From positions 100,698 to 164,697 of the forward strand of contig VCJN01000407.1 of assembly GCA_006384855.1 (NCBI GenBank): DNA of 64,000 nucleotides, read 5' to 3'. Shown here piece by piece: positions 2,914-13,558 of the stretch. A program made the translations under genes and the position numbers. How positions within the stretch are numbered: the first letter of the stretch is position 1; each line of letters begins with the position of its first letter. The stretch comes from Tetraselmis striata. Lineage: Eukaryota; Chlorophyta; Chlorodendrophyceae; Chlorodendrales; Chlorodendraceae. Below the pieces are notes generated by a model that searched no databases, was not told where the DNA came from, and saw only the letters and a program-made list of their open reading frames with translations.

Positions 2914-5052
2914 CTACCTCGACATTGTCGCCTTCCGGGGCTCCTGCCAGCTGCATGCCGGATCCGGGTTTGACACAAGGCAGCCTTCGCCTCCAAATGC
3001 GCAGTCGTCCGCGGCTCTCCGCGGACGCGCCGGTCCGCGGCGACTGCCTTCGTCGGAGCGCGGCCGCAGGCTGTCCGGAGCGATGGGTGCGGGAGCAAAG
3101 CCACGGCTCCGCCCGCTGGGGGCCATCACCGTGACGCCCAACACCCCCCCAGCGAGCATCGCGGCAGGGACCAGACTCTGGCGCAGGATGCGCCGCCAAC
3201 AGGTCTTGCCGCCCTGGAGCGCCGGCTCGCACACAAGCAGTTCTTGGGGAGCGGCAGCCCCCCTGCTGTCCTTTGTGGGTGGAGGGCCTACCGGCTCCAC
3301 CTCCGGCGGCAGCTGCACCGGTTCCAGCTGCACCTCACACGCAACAATGTCCAGAGCCTGCGCTTCCGGCGACCCCGCCCCGTTCACGAGGGACCCCTGC
3401 TCGGGGGTCCGCACCCCACGGACCTGCGGGACTGCGCTCAGGTGGATCTCGCACGCCACCATCTGCAGCAGCTGCAGCACCTGCAGCTCCGCCGCCCCAT
3501 GGTGCAGCGGCTCCTCTGCGGCCAGTGGCTCCTCTGCCCCCAGCGGGGCCTGTGACTCTGGCCGCTCCTCGGTTGCCGTCTCGGCGTCTGCCCCCATCGG
3601 GCGTTCGACAGTCTCCGCAATCAAGCCGGCACCACCACCACCACCGGCACCAGCACCAGCATCCGAATCCGCCGGTGGCAGTTCCTCTTTCGGCTCCAGC
3701 ATCTGCGCCGCATGCAGCTTGGCATCGCACTCCGCCAGCTGCTCCAGTAGCCGCAGCCGCTCGTTCTCCGCCGCCAGCTTGGTGGCCTGCCCTGTCGCCT
3801 CCCCAAGCGCGCTACGCAGGCGCAGGTTCTCCGCCTTCAGCGCCGCCACGTCTCCGAGCGCGTCCTCGTTGACAACGGGGGCGTTGGCCATCTGCGCCGC
3901 GCGCGCCGCAAAGCCCAGCGTGCTCTCCGTCTCCCGTAGGCTGTGCGGGCAGGGGCTGATGGCCGCGATCAGCACGGCTCTCGCGTTGCCGCCCAGGCTG
4001 TCCTGCAGCAGGTGCGTCAGCTTGGAGTCGCGGTACGGCACGTGTCGCGAGCCCTGGACCACGTGCGTGACGACGTGGCTCAGCGCCGAGAGGCTCTTAT
4101 TGATGGAGGCCGCCTCCTTCAGGCGTTGCCCCGCCGCGCCGCTTCGCCGCTGCCGCTCGCTGCCCGCCAGGTCCACCAGGTTGAGCGTCGCGCGGGTCAG
4201 CCGCGCCACGCCGCCGGCCCCGTCCTGCCGGCATTCAATGGCGCATCTCAACACGGCGTGGCTGCGGCTGGAGACCTCGTTGGTAGCGGTGCCGGCGACG
4301 TTGCGGTTGGCCAGGCCAGCGGCGATCAACGATAATGCCGCCGGCAGGTCAGCCACCTCGCGCTCCTCCGCACCCTCCACGCGCGTGGCGCCCGCGCTCC
4401 CGCCGGCGACCTGGCGGACAGCCAAGTTGGACCGCCGACCAAGGAGGTCCGTGACGATCTCGTTGTATATTTCGTAGAAGCTGGCGCGCACGGAGAACAC
4501 CGCGCCGGGTTGCTCGGCACGCAGCGCCTCGATCCGCGAGAATAAGTACTCGAATACGCGAGGCGTGAGGCCGGCGCGCGACGACAGCGCAGCGCCCCCT
4601 TCGCTGACGACCGCCGGCGTTTCGTCGGACGGCAGGCTGGACAAGCTGCTACGCCGCGATGCGCTGTCCTCGCTGCTGCGGGAAAGGACGCCGGACCTCC
4701 GCCGACATTGGACCCGCTCGCTTTTGGTGGGCGTGCGCGGAGTGGTGGCCACGTGCCCCGGTATGTCGCCCAGCATGGTGTGCGTCTTCCCGCTCCCCGT
4801 TGGACCGTACGCTAGAACCGCGCTGTTATACCCCGCCAGGCAGCTCTCCACCGACGGCTGCCCCGCCAGCCGGAACACGGCGTCCTGCCCGCTTTCGGGC
4901 CCAAGCACGGCATCGAAGTGGTACTGGCGGCCCGTCGCCAGCAGCACCTCCCGCGGCCCGCGAACCTCCACCGCGCTGTCGGAGCCCGAGCTCGGCCGAA
5001 CCCTAACCACCACCTGCACATTGCTGTCGCTGCTGGAACCATTCATCGTCAT
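2914..5052 (-). CDS. Kinesin-12-like motor protein
   Basis: A single uninterrupted 712-residue frame with an N-terminal kinesin motor, a microtubule-driven ATPase. Visible motifs are the P-loop GPTGSGKT (83-90), switch I NEVSSRSH (258-265), switch II VDLAGSE (293-299), INKSLSAL (317-324) and PYRDSKLTHLLQDSLGGNA (339-357). GLTPRVFEYLF (161-171) and the neck VVNEDALGDVAALKAE (393-408) resemble kinesin-12 (KIF15/PAKRP1 type). A short coiled coil follows to about 450, then a low-complexity tail with imperfect repeats VACEIHLSAV and VACEVQLEPV. Two oddities: an inserted Ser/Arg-rich loop of about 65 residues (95-160, loop L5 position), and a hydrophobic segment near 627-643 followed by a basic tail. 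At 712 residues it is short for kinesin-12, and the 3' end could be spliced differently. The start was chosen because the beta-1 strand VQVVVRVRP follows within 20 residues. Confidence 0.93.
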   Translation of the reverse strand: MTMNGSSSDSNVQVVVRVRPSSGSDSAVEVRGPREVLLATGRQYHFDAVLGPESGQDAVFRLAGQPSVESCLAGYNSAVLAYGPTGSGKTHTMLGDIPGHVATTPRTPTKSERVQCRRRSGVLSRSSEDSASRRSSLSSLPSDETPAVVSEGGAALSSRAGLTPRVFEYLFSRIEALRAEQPGAVFSVRASFYEIYNEIVTDLLGRRSNLAVRQVAGGSAGATRVEGAEEREVADLPAALSLIAAGLANRNVAGTATNEVSSRSHAVLRCAIECRQDGAGGVARLTRATLNLVDLAGSERQRRSGAAGQRLKEAASINKSLSALSHVVTHVVQGSRHVPYRDSKLTHLLQDSLGGNARAVLIAAISPCPHSLRETESTLGFAARAAQMANAPVVNEDALGDVAALKAENLRLRSALGEATGQATKLAAENERLRLLEQLAECDAKLHAAQMLEPKEELPPADSDAGAGAGGGGGAGLIAETVERPMGADAETATEERPESQAPLGAEEPLAAEEPLHHGAAELQVLQLLQMVACEIHLSAVPQVRGVRTPEQGSLVNGAGSPEAQALDIVACEVQLEPVQLPPEVEPVGPPPTKDSRGAAAPQELLVCEPALQGGKTCWRRILRQSLVPAAMLAGGVLGVTVMAPSGRSRGFAPAPIAPDSLRPRSDEGSRRGPARPRRAADDCAFGGEGCLVSNPDPACSWQEPRKATMSR

Positions 5053-5628
5053 GATTGCGCCGGGGTTTCCTCTGCGGGGGGCGGGTCGGGGGGCTGGTGT
5101 CGCCGAAGGGAATCAGGGTCGCCGACCGCTCTGCCACCCAAAGCATGTGTCGCTGGCGGTGGCGGGAATATTTGGATTAGCGTCGTTACATGCGGTATGG
5201 GTGATAAAGCGGCGCAACGGTACAGTCAGACGGCTGCTGTACTTGCATACTCCCCGCATTTAGCGCAAAGATGTCGGTGACGTTACTCCTCGTCAGCGCT
5301 TCCCGTACGACGCTGCCGTATGCCGGTACGCCGTGCATATCATATACTATACGTTAAACTCATACTTATCCGTGTTTTCTCGGATTATCTAAGCGTGAGA
5401 TTGACCAGTTCCGCCATTCCACAACTGCTACACGATACAAAATTGGTAATAGATGAATTAATACAGGGATAGCCGATTGGTAGACTTTGACGTACAGATA
5501 CGGTTTAAAATGCGCGGAAATATGAATGTCACCCGTTTATGCTAGCCTCTCCCTGAAAGCAGGTAGCGACGAGGTATTTTTACATCAGTGCTTTGAACAT
5601 ATGCGCACTACAAACAGAATTAATCCCG

Positions 5629-6530: not shown

Positions 6531-6981
6531 TGGCGGTAGCAACAAATGTGTCCATGCCGGGTGCGGAGTTAGCGGTGCGGGGGCTTGGCAGGTAAGTGCC
6601 TTTGTACTTGCCTGCTTATTTTACTCGCCTAATGTCCGAGCGATATAACGTGACTGAACTATCACGTTCGTTCGCCACATCCGCGAAAAAAAACAGCAGC
6701 TATGAAAGGTTGGTAGGTAGGTAGGTAGCAGGTAGGTACTCTTTGCCTGTGTCCGAATAATGCATTTCCTATCTGTCCGAAGATCGCCACCAAGGGACCA
6801 TCATCGCTAGGTGCCGAGTGGGGGTGCCAGCAGCAGCCGGCATGGGACCGCGAAATTTGTCGTTTATTTCGTTTATTTCGCCTTCGGGATTGGCACTGAT
6901 AAAAAAGGTGATATCTGTCCGTGATATCTGCTGGTTGTTTTCCAAATCATGCTACCCGTACCCCGTTCGATGAGGTAGGCC

Positions 6982-7485
6982 TGTCGGAGGGGATTGTCGA
7001 AGTGATGGCTGAGTGGCACTGTCACTGATGGGGGGAGAGTCGGCGAGAGTCGGCGTGCACGCGTCGAATCACGTCGAGTGCCAGCAAGCAAGGTGCGAGC
7101 TGGAAAGGCAAAGGGCTGCTATGAGCCGTGGGCGATGGACGATAGGTAGTCGCTGTCGCCGTGGTGATGGCTGAGTGGCACTGTCACGAGAGAGAAAGGG
7201 TGAGTCGGAATATTTCTGGAAAAATAGTTGACTGAATTACAAGGAACCGAGGCTGGCAGTTTATACCAGCCGGCTAGGTGTCAATTAGGACGGGCACCTC
7301 TCCGTCTAAGAAGGCCAACTGGCAAAGATGCCTAGGTGCCATGCTTTGGTAACAACTGGGTGTCGTACTTCTGCCATAGGGTCCAAATTAGGCACATGTA
7401 CGGCAGCCAGTTGTTCGCTGGAAAAATGCGGATTTCACAGAGAGAGAAAGCGGATTCAGGGGACCGGGGTACCCTGGGTCCAACA
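6982..7485 (-). repeat. 3' LTR of the Copia-like element
   Basis: 504 bp, TGTCGGAGG...GGTCCAACA on the plus strand, matching the second LTR over its whole length. Confidence 0.93.
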
Positions 7486-7731
7486 CCCCTCCTCATCCTG
7501 TGGAATCCCGTGGGCGCAGGACTGATGGCGGCAGGGGCGCAACCCAAGGCTCCTCGGATGACCCCATCAGGAAAGCGCGGAAATGAAGAAAGGTAGTCAG
7601 CAACAGCGCTTTAGCGAAGAAGTCGGCCAGGTGGGCCGGGGTAGGCGTGTAGTGCATGTAGATGATGCCGTCTTAGTAGAGTTGGGCCGCATACTGAAAC
7701 CGGAGGTCAATGTGGCGTTGCGCGCATGTAA

Positions 7732-10700
7732 TCATACCATGTTGCACCTGAACGATGCATGCGCGGTTGTCCCCGCATACTTGCACCGGGGCAGCAGTGG
7801 GGTGGCAGAGCTTGGCGTAGAAGAACGCGAATAACGGCCAGACATGTGCAGACCACGCAGAGCGCCACAAACTCCGCTGCGGCAGTAGACATGGCCACGC
7901 TGCCTCCGAACCTGCGCACGGTAGGTGACTGCAGTGTTATGAAAGTTGGTATTCAGCGTGCAGGGCAGGCGGCGAGGCTTGCTCTCCGTCATGTGAAAGG
8001 TAGTCATAAGGTCAACGATGCAGGTTTCCCGATGAAGATGGATCACGCTGCCCGGCTTTGAGCTGATGAAACCGAAGTCATGTAGAAAGGAAGGAAAGCA
8101 CAGAAACCATGCCTTGGATGCCTGCGGCAGGTCGTAGAGTGCCTCAACGGGATGCCAAGCCCGGTCCTTATGGCCACAGCCGAGGGGGAGGTAGTCATAG
8201 GCATAGGTCGCGCTGGTGATGAGTAGATTGCCGCAAACGATCACGCCGGCCTCGCGCTTGATGTTGCCATCCTCGTGCTGCGCCGCAAAGGCCCACGCCG
8301 TCTGTTGGATGACCGCTGACTCGTTGTCGCATCGAAACTCAGGGACGTTGATCCAGACGAAAAGTGCCATCGTAGTGATAGAGTTAATCTCATGGTTCAC
8401 GGACTTCTTCCAGTCATTGGGGCGAGTGCTGGAGATATCCTCCTGATAGTTGCGCGGCGCCGTGGACACGCGGGCAGTGGGTGCTGGTAGGGCGAGGGCT
8501 GTCAGCCGCGCTGAGCGGGGGCGCACAACCGCCGCCATCGCGGATGCCACCAGTGTTGGGTGGTAGTCGCTGAGGTCGACAAAGTGGGAAGTCAGTTGTG
8601 CCTGTTTGCTGGTGTGAGGAGCCGACAGGGCCGTGGCGTCCCCCTCCTGATGGTGCGGAGGGTGCTGCTCGGTGTGATGTGGAGGTGGGGGCCCCTCCTG
8701 CGGCGAAGCAAGCGCCGCCGATGGCAGCATGGGTGGCGGTACATGGGGCCCCTCCTGCTGGCCCGAGGGTTGAAACGCGTCCATCAGGTAGTCAGCGTTG
8801 GAGAACTGAAAGGCCGGCATAGAGAGAGGCGGGGTCTTGCGCCCGGTAGCCGGGTTGTAGATGCGGCAGCCACTGAAGGGGCCGGGGTCGGCGAGCTTGA
8901 TGGCGGCGACGTTGTTGCCGCAGTTCCGGATGTCTTGCGGTTGAGTGATAATGGTCCACAGAAGGGTGTCGCGGTGAACCTCCGAGCCGCAGGACGCCGC
9001 GCGCACGATGTTGCATGCGCCAAATGAGGAGAGTACTTCTGGTAAAGCCAGCGCGTCTGGACAATTCTGCACAATATAGCGCACTGGTGTGGGCTGAGAA
9101 GACAGGTAGAAGCGGGTGAAGCTGATGATGGAGGCGAAGGCACGAGAGCGATGGTCCCGCCAGTCAAGGCGTGAGCCCGTGGGCGACCATGGTTGTAACG
9201 GTGTGCTTGACACGACTAGGGTGAACAGGCGCAGCCGCTCCAGCTCCGTGATAGTGATGTCGTTGATGTTCATGGGGGTCCCGTCATGACAGTCCTGAAA
9301 TGCTGATGGAGGCAGGCGGCCCGGATATTTGCTGCTGATGACCTGTAGGTGATGTGGCCCCATAGTGCGAGCCTCCGTTGATGGGTCGGCGCCGATGAAC
9401 GCGTGGATGGAAAAGCCGTATTCCACCACAGCCTCCACCTCAAATGCCGATGGGCCATGGCAGGGCGAGAAGAGATGTTCGATTACCAAAGAAGAGCTTG
9501 GCATATGGAGGAGCGGGGCAGCGGTGAGTATTGGGAGCGGCGGTGGCAGGTCTCCACGTAGGGCGCCCTGCCCCGTATGAACGTCGTGGGCCGCCAGTGC
9601 CGCTGAGGTTGGGAATGCGGGTGAAGCGAGGCATAGAGGTTGAATTGGGGTGGGAATAGGTTGAGAGCGGAAATGCTGGCGGGCACGCCATGGGTGTGAA
9701 AACGGGCACTGGAAGTTGTCGTCAGAGTTGGAGTAGGGGACGTGCCAGGATTCATGAAATTCATCGTCGTCGTCCTCGCCCTCCCCCTCCTGCGCTCCGG
9801 TGGCTGCCCCTCCTGGGGCGGTGGTGGTGCAGGTGAGCATGACGGGCAGGCCGCTGTGGTGTGGTGCCAACGAGGACACACCCATTAACGGGTAGGCCTC
9901 TTGGCATCCTGTCGGCTGCTGGTCAGAGTCGTTGCTAGCCGGGTGATGTCCGTAGTGGTGATGTCCGGCCGGGGAGACGAAGCCAAATGGCTGGTGATGG
10001 CGCTGCAGGTTGTCGTTGTCGCTCTGGGTGGGCCAATATTGCTGCCGTTGGGGGCTGTTTTGATGGTTGTAGTCGTTGCGCAGGTTGTTGGTATAGTTGT
10101 CGTTGACGTGACGCTCCGCAGGCGCGCGCTGATAGTGACCATAGCTAGGGTTGTTCACGGTGCTGGGTGGGGCGGTGTCACCCAGGAGACGGAGGCCGTT
10201 GGCATGGCGCCTGGCCAAACACTGATGTTGAGCATGGCCTGGACGGTCACACCTGCTGCAGACGATGTTGGGCCTGATGGCATGTATTTGGTCGCTGGGG
10301 TCGCAGGAATTGAGGGTTGGCGTGCGTGAACGGGCGCGCTGCTGACGCTGACGCGTGCGCGCCTCCATGTTCTGTCCGGCACTTATGATGGTTGCCAGCC
10401 GCTTGGTGACATTGGTTGCCGGGATGGTGGCGTCCACAATGTGATCGTATGCTGGGTGAAGTCCTGGGATGAGGTAGTTGATGGCCACGTACTCGAATGT
10501 CCACTGGCCATGTGCCTTGCGCAACAAGTTCCAGAGGTTCCGGCAGCGGCGAACGTACACCTGGACCGGCTCATTCGGGAGCTGGCCTGCTGTGATTTCT
10601 TCCTCCAAGCGCCTGCGCTCCTCTATGGCCGAGCCCTGGAGTTCAGTAAATAGGGCCGTCCAGGCCGCATATCCACACTTCCTGGAGTCCATGCTGATGC

Positions 10701-11112
10701 TGTTGACGATGGCCAGTGCCATGGGATAATGCGCCGTCGCGTGGCGCAGGGCTGCCAGAAGCATCATTTGTTCCTGACGGGTGCCTTTGCCCTTGGTGGT
10801 GTCCAGGTAGCCGGCGCTGCCGAGAGCGATCTTGATAGCTTGAGCGTTGTCCCGCGTAGAGATGGTGTTGTCCCAGATGGGGACGTTCTTGAGGTTGAGT
10901 GTTGGCTTCACTGCAGCTGGCTTGATATGCTGGATGTCACCTGAGTCACTCTCTGATGCCTCGTCCATGCTGAAGGCGTCGTCAGACGAACTGGTATCAT
11001 TACGGAAGTGAGGCGGTGGCGGGGCGTCGCCAGGGTCGGTCTTGATCGCACTCTGCCGAGCCAGATTGGCCAGGGAAGTGTTCATCATGCCGGTGTTGAT
11101 GCTGGTAGACAT
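7732..11112 (-). CDS. Copia-like Gag / methyltransferase-like / RT-like polyprotein (fossil)
   Basis: One long frame. From the N-terminus: a Gag-like region with a Copia-type core (KIALGSAGYLD, VQVYVRRCRNLWNLL; about 10,900-10,330); a CCHC zinc knuckle CSRCDRPGHAQHQC (near 10,216-10,265); an acidic and proline-rich linker; a domain at about 9,487-8,860 whose blocks follow the order and spacing of C5-cytosine DNA methyltransferases (HLFSPCHG at motif I, ADPSTEAR, LVVSSTPLQPWS with RLDWRDHRSRAF at motif IV, RYIVQNCPDAL at the ENV motif, SCGSEVHRDTLLW at motif VIII); then a worn Copia reverse-transcriptase-like part (NDWKKSVNHEINSI, ALYDLPQASKAWF). The methyltransferase call is mine by eye. The product looks worn, and I infer no activity for it. 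Confidence 0.7.
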   Translation of the reverse strand: MSTSINTGMMNTSLANLARQSAIKTDPGDAPPPPHFRNDTSSSDDAFSMDEASESDSGDIQHIKPAAVKPTLNLKNVPIWDNTISTRDNAQAIKIALGSAGYLDTTKGKGTRQEQMMLLAALRHATAHYPMALAIVNSISMDSRKCGYAAWTALFTELQGSAIEERRRLEEEITAGQLPNEPVQVYVRRCRNLWNLLRKAHGQWTFEYVAINYLIPGLHPAYDHIVDATIPATNVTKRLATIISAGQNMEARTRQRQQRARSRTPTLNSCDPSDQIHAIRPNIVCSRCDRPGHAQHQCLARRHANGLRLLGDTAPPSTVNNPSYGHYQRAPAERHVNDNYTNNLRNDYNHQNSPQRQQYWPTQSDNDNLQRHHQPFGFVSPAGHHHYGHHPASNDSDQQPTGCQEAYPLMGVSSLAPHHSGLPVMLTCTTTAPGGAATGAQEGEGEDDDDEFHESWHVPYSNSDDNFQCPFSHPWRARQHFRSQPIPTPIQPLCLASPAFPTSAALAAHDVHTGQGALRGDLPPPLPILTAAPLLHMPSSSLVIEHLFSPCHGPSAFEVEAVVEYGFSIHAFIGADPSTEARTMGPHHLQVISSKYPGRLPPSAFQDCHDGTPMNINDITITELERLRLFTLVVSSTPLQPWSPTGSRLDWRDHRSRAFASIISFTRFYLSSQPTPVRYIVQNCPDALALPEVLSSFGACNIVRAASCGSEVHRDTLLWTIITQPQDIRNCGNNVAAIKLADPGPFSGCRIYNPATGRKTPPLSMPAFQFSNADYLMDAFQPSGQQEGPHVPPPMLPSAALASPQEGPPPPHHTEQHPPHHQEGDATALSAPHTSKQAQLTSHFVDLSDYHPTLVASAMAAVVRPRSARLTALALPAPTARVSTAPRNYQEDISSTRPNDWKKSVNHEINSITTMALFVWINVPEFRCDNESAVIQQTAWAFAAQHEDGNIKREAGVIVCGNLLITSATYAYDYLPLGCGHKDRAWHPVEALYDLPQASKAWFLCFPSFLHDFGFISSKPGSVIHLHRETCIVDLMTTFHMTESKPRRLPCTLNTNFHNTAVTYRAQVRRQRGHVYCRSGVCGALRGLHMSGRYSRSSTPSSATPLLPRCKYAGTTAHASFRCNMV

Positions 11113-11302
11113 TGCGAAGGGATGGCGCCCTTGTGATGGAGGATGTATAACTGTAGGGATGGGCGGGTGGGAAGAAAAACTCGTCGCACGGCGCCGTCGA
11201 TCGTCGAAAGTTGTCGAGGGTCGAGATACACGCAGGTTGAAGCCTCTGGCAGGCGTCGAGCACGGGGCAAGACGTCGAACCAAAGGAGAGGGCCCAAAAA
11301 CC

Positions 11303-11806
11303 TGTCGGAGGGGATTGTCGAAGTGATGGCTGAGTGGGACTGTCACTGATGGGGGGAGAGTCGGCGAGAGTCGGCGTGCACGCGTCGAATCACGTCGAGT
11401 GCCAGCAAGCAAGGTGCGAGCTGGAAAGGCAAAGGGCTGCTATGAGCCGTGGGCGATGGACGATAGGTAGTCGCTGTCGCCGTGGTGATGGCTGAGTGGC
11501 ACTGTCACGAGAGAGAAAGGGTGAGTCGGAATATTTCTGGAAAAATAGTTGACTGAATTACAAGGAACCGAGGCTGGCAGTTTATACCAGCCGGCTAGGT
11601 GTCAATTAGGACGGGCACCTCTCCGTCTAAGAAGGCCAACTGGCAAAGATGCCTAGGTGCCATGCTTTGGTAACAACTGGGTGTCGTACTTCTGCCATAG
11701 GGTCCAAATTAGGCACATGTACGGCAGCCAGTTGTTCGCTGGAAAAATGCGGATTTCACAGATAGAAAAAGCGGATTCAGGGTACCGGGGTACCCTGGGT
11801 CCAACA
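11303..11806 (-). repeat. 5' LTR of the Copia-like element
   Basis: 504 bp, same length and nearly the same sequence as the LTR at 6,982. The long reading frame could extend into it, but the first plausible Gag start, MSTSINTG, lies at 11,112, inside the element. Confidence 0.93.
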
Positions 11807-11811
11807 AGGCC

Positions 11812-13237: not shown

Positions 13238-13300
<63 letters not shown>

Positions 13301-13501
13301 TCACACACACACAAGCCTATACTACATAGGCATACACGTACACCTACACATATGCCTATGCATACAAATACATATGATATAAACTATGGCATTGGCCGAT
13401 GACATGTGCATGTGTCTGACTAACCAGTATAATAGTTAGGACAGAAGCTCGGCAATTAGAAATATACAATGTTTTGACAGTTTGGACTTTTTGAAAGAAA
13501 A

Positions 13502-13558
<57 letters not shown>

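Follow-up and report, generated by a model that had tools for sequence, protein, structure and literature searches.

A putative non-autonomous Copia element of the green alga Tetraselmis striata with a degenerate cytosine methyltransferase domain, and its methyltransferase-bearing autonomous relatives

The window, that is, the whole stretch of 64,000 nucleotides of Tetraselmis striata DNA analysed here, holds a complete LTR element on its minus strand (Table 1). The two LTRs are identical at 500 of 504 positions (4 differences), and their TG...CA ends together with the short target duplication are as in Ty1/copia elements. A preliminary description, made from the sequence alone, had recognised a young Copia-like element of an alga, in which blocks resembling cytosine-methyltransferase motifs lie between the Gag zinc knuckle and an RT-like region. 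This reading of the locus holds: all six quoted peptides lie in the minus-strand ORF in the order given, between a CCHC knuckle and an RT-derived stretch and framed by LTRs; the near-identity of the LTRs and the Copia nature of the autonomous relatives agree with a young Copia-like element; and the host, a chlorophyte of the class Chlorodendrophyceae, is indeed an alga. The single ORF thus reads, in order, a Gag-like part, the CCHC knuckle, a C5-cytosine methyltransferase (DNMT) segment and an RT-derived stretch. Pfam matches to this ORF included neither a gag family nor RVT_2, and it is the CCHC motif and the resemblance of its DNA to L009, a copy of an autonomous relative in the same genome, that identify Gag and RT.

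Set against the Copia order Gag–protease–integrase–RVT_2, in which the ORFs of the autonomous loci L009, L017 and L054 are arranged, the window element is without protease, integrase and RT catalytic motifs. Element bases 2930 and 2936 align by blastn to L009 bases 6036 and 7689, and the ~1650 bp lost at this junction cover the last part of the DNMT together with protease and integrase. Further gaps of the window element take in the regions of the two RT catalytic motifs (CAFLNA and YVDD, with positions taken from L009). Scans of the window for Rfam families and tRNAs found nothing. An ordinary host gene adjoins the element, an ORF with a kinesin motor domain (PF00225, E 2.3e-88; window 2914-5112, minus strand), and two long CA dinucleotide runs lie close together downstream of the element (window 13240-13300 and 13498-13558).

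Table 1. Features of the LTR element in the window
Feature	Position	Strand	Remarks
Complete LTR element	6982-11806	minus	~4.8 kb
5' LTR	11303..11806	minus	504 bp; TG...CA ends
3' LTR	6982..7485	minus	504 bp; paired with 5' LTR
Target-site duplication AGGCC, left	6977..6981		5 bp; same bases directly beyond right LTR
Target-site duplication AGGCC, right	11807..11811		5 bp
Polypurine-tract-like run adjoining 3' LTR	7486..7498	minus	by-eye reading of sequence
Single ORF, 1235 codons	7732..11439	minus
ATG of the Gag reading (MSTSINTG)	11110-11112	minus
CCHC zinc knuckle CSRCDRPGHAQHQC	10219..10260	minus	zf-CCHC matches below cut-off
Degenerate C5-cytosine methyltransferase domain, motifs I to VIII only	8877..9510	minus	PF00145, L009 homology, DNMT3/DNMT2 fold matches
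HLFSPCHG block (motif I in the preliminary description)	9454-9477	minus
ADPSTEAR block (motif II in the preliminary description)	9367-9390	minus
Motif IV remnant LVVSSTPLQPWS	9184..9219	minus	L009 reads SGPPCQPWS; catalytic Cys replaced by Leu
RLDWRDHRSRAF block (motif IV, with LVVSSTPLQPWS, in the preliminary description)	9136-9171	minus
Motif VI (ENV) remnant RYIVQNCPDAL	9049..9081	minus	Glu replaced by Gln
Motif VIII-like SCGSEVHRDTLLW	8956..8994	minus
Deletion junction	8871..8877	minus	~1650 bp absent compared with L009
Integrase/RT linker into RT, with internal deletions	7925..8835	minus	blastn blocks against L009

Is the segment a methyltransferase at all? Its sequence matches by themselves are a weak hint. 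The segment alone (8860-9489) reaches 15.2 bits with PF00145 (E 0.015), under the 22-bit cut-off, so that the Pfam search proposed in the preliminary description succeeds for the relatives (L009 36.8 bits, L017 27.0, L054 45.8) and fails for the window copy itself. PF00145 is the only Pfam family for the segment at E <= 10, and NCBIfam gave none, leaving no other domain in these two collections as a better identity. Only two PDB sequences matched the segment at E <= 10, both of them DNMT2 (E 0.087 and 0.088). An AlphaFold model of the segment has modest confidence (pLDDT 62.4, pTM 0.56); the best 50 of its 1068 fold matches at E <= 10 are all C5-methyltransferase entries, mostly DNMT3A/3B complexes (judged by entry, not chain by chain), with DNMT2 also among the best, 8 matches reaching E <= 0.001 and TM-scores to the query spanning 0.34-0.44. 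Structure prediction, also suggested beforehand, thus points to the same fold. A search of phage records gave one weak match (E 0.3), and of the 369 pattern matches that the family alignment produced in viral contigs none was confirmed as a relative.

The segment corresponds to the N-terminal two thirds of a C5-cytosine methyltransferase domain. In the window copy motif IV reads TPLQPWS, without the Cys of the PC pair, and the Glu of ENV is replaced (QNC); motifs IX and X, present in the autonomous families aligned, are deleted. With PLQ for PPCQ and QNC for ENV, this copy is, as far as its residues tell, catalytically dead. The preliminary description had called the domain worn here and had suggested that full-length relatives elsewhere in the genome may carry a better version, and both points proved right: L009, L017 and L054 exceed the PF00145 cut-off.

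A search of the genome (224 Mb, 2903 contigs) with the window segment returned at least 151 matches (150 of 391 candidates scored), the closest of these being copies of the same short element. The proposed search for further copies and comparison of their domain order thereby yielded same-element copies and autonomous relatives alike. A second group, the L009 family, has ORFs of up to 2162 codons; its identity to the window segment is 68% across the matched part and 64% when the full alignment (236 aligned residues) is counted. These read a Gag-like part, a weak zinc knuckle, PF00145, a weak Pol_BBD with a DSGA protease motif and, downstream, gag_pre-integrase, rve (below cut-off), SH3 and RVT_2. 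The L009-family DNMT shows LFSPCHG, GPPCQPWS, IVENVPG, CGSAAHRDTLLWTN, RAMGF and a motif X-like GGVIDLN, so that motifs I, IV, VI, VIII, IX and X stand in order. That a domain this similar to the window segment matches PF00145 significantly is what upholds the proposal of a captured C5 methyltransferase. A third group (L017, L018; PF00145 27.0 and 29.5 bits) carries GPCCEPWS and (I/L)IENVPG. The 2299-codon family of L054 reads zf-CCHC, PF00145, Pol_BBD, gag_pre-integrase, rve (below cut-off), SH3 and RVT_2; Pol_BBD, rve (likewise below cut-off in L009 and L017) and RVT_2 follow one another in all three. Found among the top RVT_2 matches, a 2147-codon family (L057, L058; PPCAPFS, ENVPGA) has a DNMT ~640 codons upstream of the RT in an ORF of that same length, and is absent from the PF00145 matches listed for the genome. 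There are, then, four diverged Copia families with DNMT and RVT_2 in one ORF. The 2483-codon ORF of L053, about half identical to L049 of the 2299-codon family, is likely a fifth with DNMT and RT; it was read over 1.3 kb, as far as a Copia-type protease start that follows the DNMT at the end of the stretch.

Searches with the second-group domain gave at least 116 matches (113 of 544 candidates scored), including 21 full-length ones at >= 95% identity, 19 without stops; with the third-group domain there were at least 126 (123 of 514 scored), 18 of them full-length at >= 95% identity and 16 without stops; and PF00145 itself gave at least 123 across the genome (123 of 337 scored). In many copies the DNMT is in frame with the retroelement ORF, and near-identical polyproteins occur in EukProt under the label jgi/Tetstr1. 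LTR pairs of 8 L009-family loci (L027 and L028 not among them) are 98.6-100% identical, from which we conclude that the autonomous family has moved recently. A 1561-codon family with many RVT_2 matches showed no DNMT among the PF00145 or domain-search matches listed, an absence that is weak as proof of a DNMT-free Copia, the 2147-codon DNMT family having been missed by PF00145 as well. The genome also contains free-standing C5-methyltransferase ORFs of 325-341 codons (L055 at G000:C1993:451-1500, and others on C776, C1230, C1647, C2337, C355 and C1455), which could be part of another mobile element or a viral insertion; the best PDB match of L055 is DNMT1, and C776 and C1230 also hold 1561-codon Copia elements.

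Taken alone, the sub-threshold score of the window segment and its missing catalytic Cys and Glu would be what one expects if the motif blocks were a chance resemblance in a fast-evolving Gag–Pol spacer, with no methyltransferase domain present. The relatives rule this out, and we reject it as having practically negligible probability: the autonomous relative at 64% identity has both the significant PF00145 match and the ordered motifs, other Copia families and one element outside the species carry the domain ahead of the protease, and a profile built from seven such DNMT domains found nothing except C5 methyltransferases among PDB sequences (34 of 34 at E <= 0.001). The latter were HaeIII, HhaI, DNMT2, DNMT3A and one named 'Cytosine-specific methyltransferase'.

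How does the window element relate to its autonomous kin? Its LTRs are 91.5-92.9% identical to L009-family LTRs in full-length matches (85.4-90.2% where the latter are truncated at locus ends). Together with the deletion map, this identifies it, on sequence grounds, as a putative non-autonomous derivative of an autonomous Copia of the same alga, formed by internal deletion. We compared 28 copies of the window family (the window, which is L001, with L002-L008 and L029-L048, all from the top of the genome match list, where matches are full-length) with autonomous copies. All 10 L009-family and all 8 L017-family copies have the Cys of motif IV, as do 10 of 28 window-family copies, the other 18 having Leu; the motif VI Glu is likewise kept in 10 of 10 and 8 of 8, and in 0 of 28, all of which read Gln. 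Among the 18 autonomous copies counted, ENV stands in 17 and ENA in 1. These counts lean towards intact domains, since the autonomous loci (L009-L028) were chosen for long open frames. Two diverged copies outside the 10 and 8 each have one stop: L022 keeps Cys and Glu, and in L023 motif IV is aligned to a gap and ENV is kept. As the window-family copies that retain the Cys already have Gln, the Glu was lost before the Cys in this family. Despite the lost active site, window-family copies keep long ORFs. It is plausible that window-type elements are mobilised in trans by proteins of the autonomous family; being moved in this way, they would no longer need a DNMT of their own.

Selection on the autonomous DNMT looks purifying, though not uniformly so. 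In the L009 family (10 copies, 45 pairs) pooled pN/pS is 0.16 for the DNMT, 0.095 for its N-terminal part and 0.24 for Gag; in the L017 family it is 0.42 for the whole domain and 0.185 for the N-terminal part; and between the L009 family and the decayed copy L022 it is 0.40. L051 against L049 and L050 gives dN/dS 0.21 and 0.17 over ~400 codons that include the protease start, and for the pair L049 and L050 the value is 0.42, based on 16 changes. Ratios at dS > 1.4, as between families and with L053 (dN/dS 0.15-0.21), are saturated and were not relied on. The RT segment of the L009 family, at a pooled pN/pS of 0.73 on few changes, is no clean control. In the window family selection on the DNMT is relaxed: in the 361 of 378 pairs that remain once those with pS <= 0.02 are set aside, the median dN/dS is 0.68. 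When 8 window-family copies are set against the 10 L009-family copies (80 pairs), median dN/dS is 0.183/0.334 = 0.55 for the DNMT and 0.094/0.372 = 0.25 for Gag, so that the DNMT decays faster than Gag on this longer branch, while the same 8 copies, the closest of the window family, give similar values when compared with one another (0.42 for the DNMT, 0.41 for Gag).

What might the methyltransferase do for an element that carries it? To our knowledge, retrotransposons with their own cytosine methyltransferase are rare, and they are puzzling because cytosine methylation normally silences retrotransposons. The preliminary description had raised the thought that such an enzyme methylates the element's own DNA, and for CG sites we find no support for it. 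Element CpG observed/expected ratios are 0.86-0.98; the flanks of copies stand at 0.87 and the window outside the element at 0.98. An excess of TpG or CpA is confined to a single strand (antisense, 1.34-1.35 for the window and L009 families) and so differs from the pattern on both strands that CpG decay leaves. In 13 LTR pairs with 34 substitutions in total, 2 changes are CpG transitions, CpG bases making up 552 of 4956 aligned. There is thus no sign of strong CG methylation; methylation in other contexts, or a short-lived one, remains compatible with these data.

The position of the DNMT on the Gag side of the protease, within one long ORF, suggests that it is packaged with Gag–Pol. The autonomous elements encode one polyprotein that runs Gag, zinc knuckle, DNMT, protease, integrase, RT and RNase H, its DNMT looking intact; the DNMT, made as part of Gag–Pol, would enter the particle with it and methylate the new cDNA of the element or its insertion site; and window-type elements, with LTRs ~92% identical, would move with the proteins of the autonomous family. 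Judged from such features, methylation of the element's own cDNA appears the likeliest function. Overall, we think it probable that the window holds a recent non-autonomous Ty1/copia element with a dead partial DNMT, derived by deletion from an armed autonomous Copia whose DNMT would act on cDNA or the insertion site.

The domain might instead be a C5 methyltransferase by descent that is kept for the element RNA or the primer tRNA, or for a structural or nucleic-acid-binding role in the particle. Several observations would fit such a role: both the window segment and L054 have DNMT2, a tRNA methyltransferase, among their best sequence matches; the DNA lacks a CpG signature; the window family maintains long ORFs with its active site gone; and in its 8 closest copies the DNMT segment is under no weaker constraint than Gag. 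Against it, DNMT3A/3B rank first in the fold matches, the motif VIII pattern AHR...W.N is that of DNMT3, and on the longer branch to the L009 family the DNMT has been freer to change than Gag; we regard this alternative as unlikely. Even less probable, in our view, is that the DNMT serves to defend host or element from competitors, for instance through methylation of rival elements or DNA viruses, a proposal to which an antiviral accessory-domain idea for retrotransposons lends some precedent (PMC6338049). Methylation of the element's own cDNA or insertion site remains our preferred reading.

Where else do such domains occur? We searched 5.8 billion proteins, within 0.55-1.75 times the query length and with shared exact words; the distribution found is a lower bound, as both conditions limit the reach of the search. 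Outside T. striata it yielded a single further Copia polyprotein, P0019 (an ENA contig), with the same domain order and a PF00145 score of 24.0 bits, two LINE-like proteins with a DNMT (P0020 and P0021, ENA records) and three proteins of Ty3/gypsy-like type in which a region resembles a DNMT (P0011, P0012 and P0013). In P0011-P0013 motif IV reads ECQ instead of PCQ, and P0011 and P0013 have a PHD finger; in P0021 a PCIF1_WW-like stretch (PF12237, 47.8 bits) lies beside the DNMT. By eye, a LINE of the present genome (C2687, ORF of 3505 codons) combines a DNMT (L052) with an RVT_1-like region containing YADD (L056). In trees whose only outside references were DNMT3B and a Dcm-like protein of the same genome, with neither DNMT5 nor DNMT6, all Copia DNMTs separate from those of LINEs, gypsy elements and the references with an ultrafast bootstrap of 89 (88 with one more family). 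The LINE DNMTs, in which L052 groups with P0020 and P0021, form a clade at 100 and 99, the gypsy DNMTs one at 97 and 94, and the position of P0019 has little support (53 and 65). With this thin outgroup sampling, the topology would fit one capture of a DNMT by Copia. Motif VIII and the fold ranking are DNMT3-like signs, yet the best PDB sequence match of the profile is HaeIII. More speculatively, a retroelement-resident DNMT lineage may have been exchanged between superfamilies (Copia, LINE, Ty3/gypsy), with Copia and LINE families that carry it side by side in one green alga, and may have entered Copia a single time, at the base of a widespread clade. Retroelements, more than host genes, would then be its main reservoir, and the non-autonomous derivatives with dead DNMTs would be parasites of the armed elements. 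We hold this broader scenario to be possible though rather doubtful.

DNMTs in retroelements are not without precedent. De Mendoza et al. (2018) described Symbiodinium LINEs and DIRS elements, and a Klebsormidium Gypsy element, that carry them (PMC5890265, the source of all statements on these elements here). KnitGypsy-Dnmt3 of Klebsormidium nitens is likewise an LTR retrotransposon with a DNMT in its polyprotein, for which conserved catalytic residues and purifying selection were reported, but it is a Ty3/gypsy element of a charophyte, whereas T. striata, a chlorophyte, has Copia elements whose DNMT lies between Gag and protease; the gypsy-like DNMTs of the present searches (P0011-P0013, which were not identified as KnitGypsy) are 26-29% identical. 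SymbioLINE-Dnmt and SymbioDIRS-Dnmt3 resemble the present case in that the DNMT occurs in many retroelement copies, and SymbioDIRS domains methylated CG in yeast; they differ in being LINE and DIRS elements of dinoflagellates, and the Copia elements of Symbiodinium are described there as being without a DNMT. DIRS-like elements with a Dam-type adenine methyltransferase, too, carry a retroelement methyltransferase, which according to the same paper is structurally unrelated. The only printed mention of a Copia DNMT that we found is one sentence of a 2025 paper that names 'LTR Copia', without details, for streptophytes and dinoflagellates; it cites the 2018 work, which describes a Gypsy element, and Tetraselmis is absent from its main text (PMC12344493). 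Host C5 methyltransferases are known from the genus, reported as DNMT5 and DNMT6: T. astigmata has DNMT5a, and transcripts of DNMT6 come from three Tetraselmis; the same survey, as far as seen, lists no DNMT3 for its green algae (PMC9998398).

In the literature searched (titles and abstract starts, and open-licence papers) we found no description of a DNMT-bearing Copia in Tetraselmis or another chlorophyte. Because the DNMT retrotransposons described so far are LINE, DIRS and Ty3/gypsy elements, the chlorophyte Copia group represents a new variant. Copia families with intact-looking DNMTs and relatives with dead ones, housed in one alga, amount to a built-in comparison. It allows one to ask what a DNMT does for the element that carries it, and whether an element can live without a copy of its own beside an armed relative.
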